Source of the DNA: Chloroflexota bacterium
GTDB lineage: Bacteria; Chloroflexota; UBA6077; JACCZL01
Assembly (NCBI GenBank): GCA_020850535.1
Contig: JADZEM010000117.1
Coordinates: 1 to 64,000 of the forward strand
Direction: 5' to 3'
Length of the DNA: 64,000 bases
The notes beneath the pieces were generated by a model. The model was not told the DNA's origin and did no database searches. It saw only the letters and a list, made by a program, of their open reading frames with translations. A program made the position numbers and the translations under genes. Positions 48,327 through 53,545 of the stretch are shown here, piece by piece (position 1 is the first letter of the stretch; each line of letters begins with the position of its first letter).

Positions 48327-49379
48327 ATGTCGGAGACGTTCCGGGTCGGCCTGACCCGCGACTTCCTGAAGCCCGATGGGACGCTCAGTCTGGGCGACAT
48401 CGGCCTGGACTTGCTGGACGCCGCGCCGGGCGTCGAGCGTCAATTCCTGCCCGAGGATGTGCCAGAGCTCCGCCCGTCCGATCTGGCCGGCTTCGACGCG
48501 ATCCTGGTGCTCGCGCCACGAGTCACGGCGGCGAGCCTGGCAGGGAACGAGCGGCTCGCCATCGTCGCGCGGTTCGGCGTGGGCTACGAGACCATCGACG
48601 TGGACGCCTGCACCGAACGCGGCATCGTGCTGACCATCACCCCGGACGGCGTCCGCCGCCCGGTCGCCACGTCGGTTCTCACCCTGATGCTGGCGCTGAC
48701 CCACAAGCTGCTGATCAAACACGAGCTGACGCGCGCGGGCCGCTGGGCTGAGAAGCTCGATCACATGGGGATGGGCCTGACCGGGCGGACCCTGGGCGTG
48801 ATCGGGCTGGGCAACATCGGGCGGGACGTTTTCAAGCTCGCCGCGCCGTTGGAGATGCGCCACCTGACGTTCGATCCGTGGGTGACGCCCGCGCAAGCCC
48901 GGGCCGGCGGCGCGACACTGGTCGATCTGGACACGCTGCTGCGTGAATCCGACGTGGTCTCCGTCAACTGCCCGCTGACGCCCGACACGCACCACCTGCT
49001 CAATCGGGAACGGCTCGGGCTGATGAAGCCGACCGCCTACCTGATCAACACGGCGCGCGGCCCAATCGTCGATCAGCGGGCGCTCTACGACGTGCTCCGG
49101 GAGCGTCGCATCGCCGGCGCGGCTCTCGACGTGTTTGACCCCGAGCCGCCGGACCCCTCCGACCCGCTGCTGCAGCTCGACAACGTCATCCTCGCGCCGC
49201 ACGGCATTTGCTGGACCGACGAGTGCTTCCACGGCAACGGTTCCAGCGCCTGCCGCTCGATCCTCGATATCGCCGGCGGTCGGACGCCGACCCATGTGGT
49301 CAACCGGGCGGCGCTCGACAGCCCGCGTTTCCGGGCGAAGCTGCAACGGCTAGCCAGCAGGGCCGCCGGCAACGAATAA
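48327..49379 (+). CDS. D-isomer-specific 2-hydroxyacid dehydrogenase
   Basis: A 350-residue NAD-dependent dehydrogenase. The Rossmann motif is LGVIGLGNIGRDVF. Catalytic residues appear as Arg in INTARGPIVD, Glu in LDVFDPEPPD and His in ILAPHGICW. FGVGYETIDVDACTERGI is typical of the phosphoglycerate dehydrogenase-like branch. It lacks the ACT domain of SerA and likely reduces a 2-keto acid. ATG follows AAGGAG. It is 53 bases after hisB on the same strand, but no function links the two. Confidence 0.92.
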   Translation: MSETFRVGLTRDFLKPDGTLSLGDIGLDLLDAAPGVERQFLPEDVPELRPSDLAGFDAILVLAPRVTAASLAGNERLAIVARFGVGYETIDVDACTERGIVLTITPDGVRRPVATSVLTLMLALTHKLLIKHELTRAGRWAEKLDHMGMGLTGRTLGVIGLGNIGRDVFKLAAPLEMRHLTFDPWVTPAQARAGGATLVDLDTLLRESDVVSVNCPLTPDTHHLLNRERLGLMKPTAYLINTARGPIVDQRALYDVLRERRIAGAALDVFDPEPPDPSDPLLQLDNVILAPHGICWTDECFHGNGSSACRSILDIAGGRTPTHVVNRAALDSPRFRAKLQRLASRAAGNE

Positions 49380-49407: not shown

Positions 49408-49869
49408 GTGATCCGCCGGCGTACCGTATGCGTATCTCCTGGTATGAGGGTGCGCGTGACGTTCGGCTCCTGGCGCGGCTGGCGGCTGCTGTCGGTGGTG
49501 CTCGTCGTCCTCGGACTGGCGGTCACCGCACCTCCGGGTGCGCCGTTTCAGGCTGCCGACCACGCAGGCGCGCTCGTCCACCCGATCTTCCCGCACGCGC
49601 ACCAGTCCGACGAGGTGTACGCGCACGACGGCGGGGCCTACGCGCTGGCGAGCCATGACCCAGCATCGCAGGATGTCGCGCCGGGCTTGAGCGTCCCCCA
49701 GGCTGGCACCGGCCTCCACGACGGCGTCGGCGGCATCGCGCTGCCATTCGCCCTGGCGATCTTGTTTGTCGCGCTGACCGCCCGCCGTGGCGTCACGGAG
49801 CTGCCGTTGCTCGGACTCGCCGTCGCGCCCGCGACGCCGCCTCCCCGACTCGTCTCCCGGTATCGGTAG
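49408..49869 (+). CDS. Small His-rich membrane protein beside copper genes
   Basis: Up to 153 residues from GTG 49408; ATG 49444 gives 141. It has two hydrophobic segments (about 26-44 and 109-127), with a loop between that is rich in His (VHPIFPHAHQSDEVYAHDGG, ALASHD). That loop lies on the outer face if the first helix is a signal anchor, and could bind copper or zinc. No family is recognised. The block of CopC and CopD genes downstream suggests a metal-handling role, which is inference. Confidence 0.6.
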   Translation: MIRRRTVCVSPGMRVRVTFGSWRGWRLLSVVLVVLGLAVTAPPGAPFQAADHAGALVHPIFPHAHQSDEVYAHDGGAYALASHDPASQDVAPGLSVPQAGTGLHDGVGGIALPFALAILFVALTARRGVTELPLLGLAVAPATPPPRLVSRYR

Positions 49870-50092
49870 TCGCCCTCAGGCAGAGCGAGCACCATCAGCG
49901 TTGTACCCTCCTGATGGAACCGCACCAGTGGCTGTCTCGTTCTGTCCAATAGGGGCAGGGTCCGCGGTCCACGACAGCACGACCCTGGCGATCGTTCGCT
50001 GGGGCGTTGCGGAAGCGCCCTGCCCAGGCGTGGGGCAATCCTTGGCTGCCCGTTCATGTTGGGAATCGGACAGCCCGAACCAGGGGAGACAC

Positions 50093-50572
50093 ATGCTTCG
50101 CAGATTCGCTGGCGGTCGTCAGGTGGCAGCGCTGGCATTGGCATTGGGGCTGGTGCTGTCGAGCGCCGTGAGTGCGTTCGCGCACGCGCGGTTCGAGCGT
50201 ACCGAGCCGCCGATCACCGCGCCGTTTGACGGCTCGCCCATCACCGTGAAGGCCTATTTCTCGCAGGAGCTCACGTCGAAGAGCTCCATCCGCGTCGTCG
50301 ACGCGAACGGCGTACAGGTTGACCTCGGCGATGGTCACGTTGACCTGGATGATCCGATCCGCAAGACGATGCTGGTCAGCCTGCCGGCGCTGCCGGTCGG
50401 CGTCTACACCATCGAATACCAGGCCGACTCCGCCGAGGACGGCCACGGCGAGCCGGGCATGGCGCAGTTTGGCGTCGGCATGCTGCCAGCCGGGGCCGAG
50501 CAGCCCGCCACCACCGACGAGTACGGCCCGACGGGCCTCTCGCCGGAGATGGCGCGTCCGCTGACTCAGTAG
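50093..50572 (+). CDS. copC: Secreted copper-binding protein CopC
   Basis: A 159-residue exported protein. Cleavage of the signal peptide after AFA would leave His31 as the first mature residue, as in CopC proteins that hold Cu(II) through the N-terminal amino group and His imidazole. The domain then shows HARFERTEPP, VKAYFSQELTSKSSIRVVDANG and LPVGVYTIEYQADSAEDGHGE, with the DGHGE His as another likely ligand. A short unstructured tail follows. The ATG follows AGGGGAGA. It probably delivers copper to the CopD part of the fusion protein at 51251. Confidence 0.85.
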   Translation: MLRRFAGGRQVAALALALGLVLSSAVSAFAHARFERTEPPITAPFDGSPITVKAYFSQELTSKSSIRVVDANGVQVDLGDGHVDLDDPIRKTMLVSLPALPVGVYTIEYQADSAEDGHGEPGMAQFGVGMLPAGAEQPATTDEYGPTGLSPEMARPLTQ

Positions 50573-50685: not shown

Positions 50686-51165
50686 ATGTTGCCCATCCTT
50701 CGCAGCAAGCTCGCATTCACGGCCGCCGGATTTCTGGCTGGCGTCTCGATGACGGTCGCCACGCTTGGCGGGATCGCCGCCCCGGTCGCTGCTGACGAGG
50801 CTGACAACGCCTTCGCCGTCGCGCAGAAGGCTGGCGTGTCCGCCAGCACCTTCCAGCTTGACAAGTCGGGCCTCCACGATATCGACGTCGCGGCGAACGA
50901 GGGCCGGCTGCTGCCGGGTGCGCTGGGCAACGTCCGCCGCGCCCGCATCGCCGTGCAAGCCACCGCGTGGCCAGAGGCGCTCCAGCCGATGGCGGCGGAG
51001 AACGTCGAAGCGCTGAAGGCGCTGGAGGAGGCGATCCGCTCCGAGGATCCGGCGAAGGTCGCTGGCCCGGCCAAGGCCGCCCACGACAAGGGGCACGATC
51101 TCTCGGCGGCTGTGTACGGCTGGCTCGACACGGGCGCTGCGCCGGCCGATGGCCACGGCCACTGA
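50686..51165 (+). CDS. Secreted helical protein with a His tail
   Basis: A 159-residue protein. The signal peptide runs to about residue 36 (VAA/ADE). The mature part is mainly helical, with a KAAHDKGHDLSAAVYGWL helix, and ends ADGHGH, giving five His in the last 35 residues. It lies between copC and the CopC-CopD fusion gene on the same strand, so it may bind or carry copper outside the membrane. No family is recognised. The start follows a GGAG motif with long spacing. Confidence 0.65.
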   Translation: MLPILRSKLAFTAAGFLAGVSMTVATLGGIAAPVAADEADNAFAVAQKAGVSASTFQLDKSGLHDIDVAANEGRLLPGALGNVRRARIAVQATAWPEALQPMAAENVEALKALEEAIRSEDPAKVAGPAKAAHDKGHDLSAAVYGWLDTGAAPADGHGH

Positions 51166-51250
51166 CCGACGCCAACCGTCTTGCGGGGGATCGGCCTGCC
51201 GGTCGCCCCGCAAGACGACCCCGCACACGTCCTCCTGAAGGGGTCACGTC

Positions 51251-53545
51251 ATGACTGGCTTGCGTCGTCATCATCCAGCTGGCGTGACCGTCCGCGTGCT
51301 CGTCGCGGTGTGCGCGGTGCTGCTCCTGCTCGGGAGCGGCGTCGGCGCGCGGCCGGCGTCGGCGCACGCGCTGTACGAGCGTTCCCAACCGGCGACCGGT
51401 GGACGTTTGGAGACGCCCGGCCAGATCCAGGTCTGGTTCACGGAGCCAGTCGAGCCGGCCTTCAGCGAGATCGAAGTCCTGGATACCAGCCGCAAGCGGG
51501 TCGATCTCCAGGACAGCCACGCCGCGCCCGGCGAACCGAAGGCGCTCGTCGTCAGCGTTCCGGAGCTGCCGGACGGCACCTACATGGTGGCGTGGCGGGC
51601 GCTCTCAGCCGTCGACGGCCACGTGACGCGCGGCGTCTTCCCGCTGGTGGTCGGGGCTGGCGGCCTCCAGATCTCTCTGGAGGAAGAACCGGTCTACCTG
51701 CCTGCACCGCTTGACGTGCTCGCACGGTGGGTCATGTACTTCGGAGCGTTGGCGTTGGCGGGCGGATACCTCTTCCGCCGAGTCGTCGCCACACCGGCGC
51801 TGGCCTCCGTCGGAGCTACGGCGACGCTCGCCGCGTTCGTCGCGCGCCAGCGGCGGCTGGGACTGTGGCTCTGCCTCGTCGTCGGGCTGTCGATGGTGCT
51901 GGGCATGCTGGTGCAGGCCGCCAATGCCGCCAACGTCGAGATCTGGCAGGCGCTCGGTTCGCCGGTCGTCAGGCTGCTCGGCACCCAGATCGGCGCGATC
52001 TGGCTCACCCGTCTGGGCTGGCTGGCGATCCTGGCGCTGGTGCTCTGGCGCGCGCCCGGCCGATTCGGCGACTGGGCTGGCGCGATCGTCGGGTCGTGCA
52101 TGCTGCTGGCGATCAGCCTGATCAGCCACGCGGCGGCCGTGCCCAGCGGCGCATGGCTGGCCATCGGACTGGACTGGCTGCACCAGTTGGGCGCGGCGGC
52201 ATGGATCGGCGGGCTGTTCAGCTTCGCCCTGCTGATGATCGTGACGCGGGTCGGCCCTGACCGTCAGCGGCTGCCGGCGCTCCTGGCGACGATGGTCCCT
52301 CGGTTCACCACCGTCGCCGTTGGGTCCGTGGTCGTCCTGGTGCTGACGGGACTGTTCCACTCCTGGCTGCAGGTCAAGAGTATCAGCGCACTCGGGACCG
52401 TCCACGGTCTGTCGCTGACGGTTAAGGTGCTGTTCATCCTGCCGATGCTCGTGCTCGGCGGCCTCAATATGGCGGTCTGGCGTCCGCGTCTCGCCGCCCT
52501 GCTCGGCGGCCGTCGGGCGGGCCAGTCCGCGCCGGCCGAGCAGATGGCCGGTCGGCTCGGGCGCGCCGTCACCATCGAGGCGGCCCTGGCCATTGTGGTG
52601 CTGCTGGCCACAGCCGTGCTGACGGCGGTGCAGCCGGCGCGCGAGGAGTACGCTCGCAAGGTGCGGCCCCTGGAGCTGACGGCCCAGGCGACCGACGTGA
52701 ACGTGCGGCTGACGATGACACCGGCCCGGCCCGGCCCGAACGAGTTCGTGGCCGATCTGACGGGCGCGGTGGCCCCACCAAACGAGATTCAGCGCGTCCA
52801 GTTGCGGTTCACCAACCTGGACGACGACCTTGGCGCGAGCCTGCTGACGCTGACGCCGCGCGACGACGGCACGTTTGGCGCGGTCAGCACCAACGTGACG
52901 GTGGACGGCACCTGGCAGATCGAGGTGATCGTGCGCCGACGCGGCCTCGACGACGTGCGAACGGCGTTCCGTGCGCCGGTCGTCACCCCGGATGCGGCGG
53001 CACAACCGCCCTCGCTGGAGGGCCTGCCGAACCCGGGCAATCTCCCGCCGCGCCAACTGGTGTCGATTGCGCTGATGGCGACCGGCCTCGCCCTGACCTA
53101 CTGGATCTCGCGCACGCGCGATGTCCGGCAGCGGGAGCGCGCCACGCTCTACGCGGCGAGCTTCGCGGTGGTGATGATCGGCGGCGTCCTCTATGCGCGC
53201 GCGGCGGTAACTCCCGCGCTGCCGCAGGACGTTCGCTCGCTCCGCAACCCGTTCCCGCCAGATACGGCGTCCATCGCGCGGGGCCGCGAGCTGTACGAGC
53301 AGCAGTGCGCCTCCTGTCACGGTCTCGCGGGGCGCGGCGACGGTCCGCTGGCGGCCTCGTTGCGCCCGCGCCCGGCCGACTTCCGGGTCCACATGGCGGC
53401 CGGCCACACCGACGGTGAGCTGTTCACCTGGCTCTCGCGCGGCGTGCCCGGCACCGCGATGCCGGCCTTCGAGGCGCAACTGGCCGAGCAGGACCGCTGG
53501 CACCTCGTGAACTTCATCCGGGGCTTCGCGCCGACCAACGAGTGA
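51251..53545 (+). CDS. CopC-CopD-YtkA-like-cytochrome c fusion protein
   Basis: A single 764-residue protein with four parts. A signal peptide (cut before H39, AHALYERSQP) and CopC domain run to about 130. A CopD membrane domain of about eight helices spans roughly 150-465. An external beta-domain (about 480-575, ATDVNVRLTMTPARPGPNEF) resembles the YtkA/FixH-type domain often linked to CopD. After another membrane helix comes a cytochrome c domain with C686-A-S-C-H690 and a Met ligand in GTAMPAF. It should take up copper and carry out heme redox at the membrane. The order suggests copper loading or reduction tied to respiration. The ATG follows AAGGGG. Confidence 0.88.
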   Translation: MTGLRRHHPAGVTVRVLVAVCAVLLLLGSGVGARPASAHALYERSQPATGGRLETPGQIQVWFTEPVEPAFSEIEVLDTSRKRVDLQDSHAAPGEPKALVVSVPELPDGTYMVAWRALSAVDGHVTRGVFPLVVGAGGLQISLEEEPVYLPAPLDVLARWVMYFGALALAGGYLFRRVVATPALASVGATATLAAFVARQRRLGLWLCLVVGLSMVLGMLVQAANAANVEIWQALGSPVVRLLGTQIGAIWLTRLGWLAILALVLWRAPGRFGDWAGAIVGSCMLLAISLISHAAAVPSGAWLAIGLDWLHQLGAAAWIGGLFSFALLMIVTRVGPDRQRLPALLATMVPRFTTVAVGSVVVLVLTGLFHSWLQVKSISALGTVHGLSLTVKVLFILPMLVLGGLNMAVWRPRLAALLGGRRAGQSAPAEQMAGRLGRAVTIEAALAIVVLLATAVLTAVQPAREEYARKVRPLELTAQATDVNVRLTMTPARPGPNEFVADLTGAVAPPNEIQRVQLRFTNLDDDLGASLLTLTPRDDGTFGAVSTNVTVDGTWQIEVIVRRRGLDDVRTAFRAPVVTPDAAAQPPSLEGLPNPGNLPPRQLVSIALMATGLALTYWISRTRDVRQRERATLYAASFAVVMIGGVLYARAAVTPALPQDVRSLRNPFPPDTASIARGRELYEQQCASCHGLAGRGDGPLAASLRPRPADFRVHMAAGHTDGELFTWLSRGVPGTAMPAFEAQLAEQDRWHLVNFIRGFAPTNE

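Follow-up and report, generated by a model that had tools for sequence, protein, structure and literature searches.

A single protein encoded in the window, the 64,000-nucleotide stretch of a Chloroflexota contig that we analyzed, combines in one chain of 764 amino acids (51251..53545, stop codon included) a CopC domain, a CopD membrane domain, a YtkA-like domain, a transmembrane (TM) hairpin and a cytochrome c. We regard the chances as about even that this protein is a YcnJ-type copper importer with a built-in heme c redox partner that exchanges one electron with copper; that the heme arm of the same importer reduces Cu(II) to Cu(I) during uptake is a narrower and more tentative proposal. The first three domains are already known as YcnJ, and the joining of a cytochrome to a permease is known as the FTR1 type; new here, as far as we could find, are the heme arm on a YcnJ-type chain and a pair of histidines, His714 and His719, that is typical of CopCD-linked cytochromes. 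A literature search, mostly outside the subscription literature, found no published description of a CopC-CopD-YtkA protein with a cytochrome c; such proteins are surely present in sequence databases.

All genes of the window given here, with their parts, are on the forward (+) strand. A likely ribosome-binding site, GAAGGGG (51237..51243), lies 7 nt 5' of the ATG. The signal peptide (residues 1-38, 51251..51364) is indicated by a helix at residues 12-30 of the AlphaFold model and by a conserved ASA-HA junction, and the predicted mature protein would begin with His39, directly after it. The CopC domain (residues 39-131, 51365..51643) was detected over its full length by Pfam (E 1.9e-16). The eight helices of the CopD membrane domain (residues 153-459, 51707..52627) are apparent in the model, and the Pfam CopD profile matches residues 348-457 (E 2e-13). 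Downstream are the YtkA-like external beta domain (residues 474-577, 52670..52981), a two-helix membrane hairpin seen in the model (residues 600-653, 53048..53209; basic inner loop SRTRDVRQRER) and a class I cytochrome c domain (residues 660-759, 53228..53527), for which the Pfam profiles Cytochrome_CBB3 (residues 674-756, E 6e-12) and Cytochrom_C (5e-11) both score above their cut-offs, as do CopC and CopD. The model, built with 38 natural homologues as input (mean pLDDT 87.8, pTM 0.81), shows in order a signal helix, a CopC beta-sandwich, eight TM helices, a beta domain, the hairpin and the cytochrome c. Its Foldseek matches are the CopC domain of YcnJ (9c14, TM-score 0.89), other CopC structures and cytochrome c552 (CytC552) of Thioalkalivibrio paradoxus, which phmmer likewise finds with the cytochrome domain. 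By helix count in this model, the CopC, YtkA-like and cytochrome domains would all lie on the outer face of the membrane.

The uninterrupted frame, the model and the Pfam search of the translated protein that the initial annotation had suggested all bear out its reading of four parts in one 764-residue frame. The least secure part is the YtkA/FixH-like domain: the Pfam YtkA match (residues 478-559, E 0.048) is below the cut-off, although the model places an eight-strand beta domain at the position of the YtkA domain of YcnJ. Pfam detects no FTR1 permease domain in the protein, and the NCBIfam ccoP profile, with 23.9 bits, does not reach its curated cut-off of 180. No Rfam elements were found near the gene, and a promoter scan gave a single weak, uninformative site at 49351.

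An assembly join or frameshift at about 53200, which would make the cytochrome a separate gene, had been named as the result that would overturn the single-gene claim. Such a join is ruled out by a 56%-identical protein (over residues 23-764) that is read straight through in one frame in a separately assembled genome of another genus, and by 39 full-length homologues, each in one frame. The survey of related genomes that had also been proposed found the same layout, as one match that covers almost all of the protein, in at least 58 of the 400 sampled Chloroflexota genomes. A scan of named genomes yielded only one full-length relative, which comes from a Chloroflexota MAG, and one match to the cytochrome alone; plasmid records contained no full-length match. 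Separately from these, a small protein in L059 (10717-11502) has a YtkA/FixH-like domain immediately after CopC and lacks CopD.

The residues expected of a copper importer are conserved in this family. His39, Asp122 and His124, the Cu(II) histidine brace of CopC, are present in 38 of the 39 full-length homologues (a conservation that also supports the domain assignment), the exception being the second copy in L092; the N-terminal His and DxH brace of YcnJ-type CopC is thus present, and the N-terminal histidine that the initial annotation placed after signal cleavage is upheld. In CopD, His293 and His311 (span 52127..52183) are kept in all 39 homologues and align with His135 and His154 of Escherichia coli YebZ; one of the two would correspond to His295 of YcnJ, conserved CopD histidines being required for uptake in YcnJ and YebZ. 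A Met or Cys that would favor Cu(I) is not among the conserved residues of CopD. In YcnJ, growth under copper limitation depends on the two histidines of the brace and on one in CopD (PMC12362106, PMC13344008). A metal site in the YtkA-like domain was considered and rejected, as the homologues have no His, Met or Cys in common there; judging from the alignment, copper binding is unlikely to be a general feature of this domain.

The C-terminal domain is a predicted class I cytochrome c. The heme attachment motif CASCH, at residues 686-690 (53306..53320) exactly as first annotated, and Met737 (53459..53461), the sixth heme-iron ligand, have the spacing of this class (CXXCH with a Met ligand some 40-50 residues later), and both CXXCH and the Met are invariant (39/39). 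The domain also contains the pair His714 and His719 (53390..53407), which the alignment shows complete in 34 of the 39 fused cytochromes and in all three split versions encoded by separate genes (L091 and L132, directly adjoining CopCD, and L133, at a distance of about 1.9 kb). A further 25 cytochromes, the majority of the same class and chosen by similarity to the fusion cytochrome, with FTR1-fused ones included, all lack the pair. Many of these 25 have Arg at both positions, and L100, L104 and L105 have one His at most, never the pair. One or both histidines are missing in L089, L090 and three fusions of family f22 (L086, L087 and L088); the cytochromes of the latter three group with unrelated ones, and these fusions may have acquired theirs from another source. 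The fusion homologue in L068 (8146-10716) carries two tandem cytochrome c domains, the second without the pair. Two solitary relatives possess the pair as well. One is a cytochrome of G022, a genome that encodes a fusion elsewhere, and adjoins a TolB-like propeller gene, the same kind of gene that lies 3' of nine fusions; the other is Thioalkalivibrio CytC552, in which His83 and His87 correspond to His714 and His719 (a numbering that agrees with the published positions of Cys55, Cys58 and His59). CytC552 takes electrons from a copper enzyme by a modelled route from the copper ion through His83 to the heme propionate (PMC9456337). Maturation genes of the Cytochrom_C_asm (Ccm-like) family are present in the genome of the window and in all 36 fusion genomes examined, and do not separate these from non-fusion genomes.

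We propose that CopC would capture Cu(II) outside the membrane via its histidine brace and, by analogy with YcnJ and YebZ, would hand it to the CopD channel with its two invariant histidines. The cytochrome, tethered by the two-helix hairpin to the same outer membrane face, may pass a single electron to or from copper around the CopC-CopD handover, through a face that bears His714 and His719 next to the heme. The likeliest direction would be reduction, with electrons drawn from the periplasmic cytochrome pool, and Cu(I), the form handled by the cytosol, would enter. The redox-exchange reading is favored because the ligands are conserved, the soluble domains are on one side in the model and the His pair is selectively kept; the split gene pairs further indicate that the cytochrome stays with CopCD even when unfused. 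The case for reduction is that Cu(I) is needed inside. Several observations weigh against these proposals: in CytC552, with a midpoint of about +160 mV, the electrons come from Cu(I), contrary to the direction proposed; Met and Cys are not conserved in CopD; and the His pair is incomplete in the five fusions listed above. Moreover, Cu(II) is not easily reduced while bound in a sub-femtomolar brace, and reduction would thus have to follow release from CopC; many Chloroflexota as well as Bacillus subtilis have CopCD-YtkA proteins without a cytochrome, which implies that the heme is not essential for import generally. In its complete form, as a tethered heme cupric reductase in which CopC binds Cu(II), the cytochrome reduces it via His714/His719 at the mouth of CopD and Cu(I) enters, the proposal seems to us plausible at somewhat less than even odds. 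Of the roles suggested in the initial annotation, a coupling of copper uptake to electron transfer best accounts for the His pair, the split genes, CytC552 and the external domains, although we can only infer its direction; the cuprous/cupric switch itself is conjectural.

The alternative that fares best, albeit an unlikely one in our estimate, is that the cytochrome serves only as an electron acceptor, oxidizing Cu(I) to Cu(II) for CopC and passing the electrons on to respiratory oxidases. It agrees with the CytC552 precedent and the midpoint of that protein: in TcDH, the partner of CytC552, His83 is the relay by which electrons leave copper for CytC552 (PMC9456337). CopC of this class, furthermore, binds Cu(II) only (PMC12362106), and plasmid records annotate natural cytochrome c/FTR1 permease fusions whose cytochrome is a roughly 40-53% match. 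Oxidation would have a parallel in these iron permeases, and another in TcDH-CytC552, where the flow is from Cu(I) to heme. However, the FTR1-fused cytochromes lack the His pair, and copper in aerobic habitats is already Cu(II).

Slightly less probable still is that the protein is mainly an oxidase assembly factor, its YtkA-like and cytochrome arms docking on a heme-copper oxidase or Sco, with the heme exerting redox control over CuA assembly. In YcnJ, the YtkA domain acts as a backup for CtaK during CuA assembly (PMC13344008), and COX1 is encoded by 34 of 36 fusion genomes versus 9 of 20 genomes with no match (Fisher p 6e-5, with genomes treated as independent). Yet the search for nearby cox genes that the initial annotation had called for found none recurring within 8 kb of the fusions, among the neighbors listed, and COX1 within about 15 kb of a fusion on the same contig in one genome only, and membership in a cox operon is not supported; the YtkA-like domain, in addition, has no conserved metal ligands. 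Oxidase assembly, also suggested initially, is accordingly the weaker reading despite the frequency of COX1 in these genomes.

The genes that do surround the fusion are of other kinds. Upstream in the window are a separate CopC gene (50087..50572, 161 aa; Pfam CopC E 2.7e-10) and a gene for an unnamed exported protein of 159 aa, predicted to be helical and with a His-rich C-terminal tail (50686..51165), which has no Pfam or NCBIfam family; relatives of the latter are found near fusions of other families, in L075, L078, L081, L084 and L085 (phmmer to 4e-10). Farther upstream, before the CopC gene, a 153-aa open reading frame (49408-49869, +) has no family match; its product contains His clusters of the HPIFPHAH type and is hydrophobic over a stretch at the C-terminus. 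At 17 loci, 15 of them fusion loci, a member of another unnamed family is located directly upstream of, and on the same strand as, the CopCD or fusion gene (L057:6875-7549, L065:10650-11312, L072:7566-8237 and 14 more loci). These proteins have an invariant mature N-terminal His (HExR) and mostly a C-terminal helix, and their model is Ig-like in fold and weakly matches CrdA/CopC. The family resembles YcnI in build, though not in demonstrated ancestry, and is a possible functional counterpart of it. A TolB-like propeller gene lies 3' of the fusion in nine loci (e.g., L064:5046-6068, L057:3238-4425 and L096:3031-4614).

The heme arm is modular: it can be fused, missing or, in 3 loci, encoded by its own gene nearby, and it changes state at least 5 times on well-supported branches of the CopCD tree; a single origin of the fused cytochrome is not rejected and also not shown (AU p 0.41). 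In L060 (4176-5525), a tandem CopCD copy without a cytochrome is the sister of the adjoining fused copy. A role for the arm as a general appendage, for carrying electrons or for sensing, and not as a copper redox partner would agree with these repeated gains and losses and with the fusion of cytochromes to nitrite reductases, too, in Chloroflexota (PMC8756737), but is the least probable of the alternatives, with the CXXCH and Met invariant in 39/39 and the His pair selectively kept in CopCD-linked cytochromes and absent in other close ones.

The current YcnJ papers leave open how Cu(II) caught by CopC becomes cytosolic Cu(I), and the fusion puts a heme at this step. If the redox-partner reading holds in the direction of reduction, the heme arm would supply the step missing from current models of CopC-CopD import. 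The fusion also offers a single-protein test system in which the His pair occupies a position implicated in copper-to-heme electron transfer, and a likely role can now be suggested for a widespread Chloroflexota protein type for which we found no description in the literature.

Among characterized systems, YcnJ of B. subtilis is alike in its N-terminal His and DxH CopC, its CopD with conserved His and, judging from the model, its YtkA-like domain, all in the same order, and is a Cu(II) importer with YcnI as its Cu(II) partner (PMC12362106, PMC13344008). It differs in having neither the membrane hairpin nor the cytochrome c and in being encoded together with YcnI (DUF1775) and YcnK, neither of which was seen next to the fusion gene of the window. 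YcnJ has no known reductase partner (PMC13344008), and whether copper reduction is enzyme-catalysed is unsettled in the work on this protein (PMC12362106, PMC13344008). CcoG, a cupric reductase, is a proposed supplier of Cu(I) in oxidase biogenesis (as cited in PMC13344008) and is a different protein that does not belong to an importer. The cytochrome c/FTR1 iron permease fusions of the plasmid records similarly join a class I cytochrome c to a metal permease, whereas the permease is for iron, the cytochrome is at the N-terminal side of the gene and the His pair is absent. CytC552 of T. paradoxus, by comparison, is a class I cytochrome with the same His pair (His83/His87) and has links both to copCD and to an enzyme that contains copper, but is a separate soluble protein whose partner, TcDH, oxidizes thiocyanate, with electrons passing from copper to heme (PMC9456337, PMC5328954).
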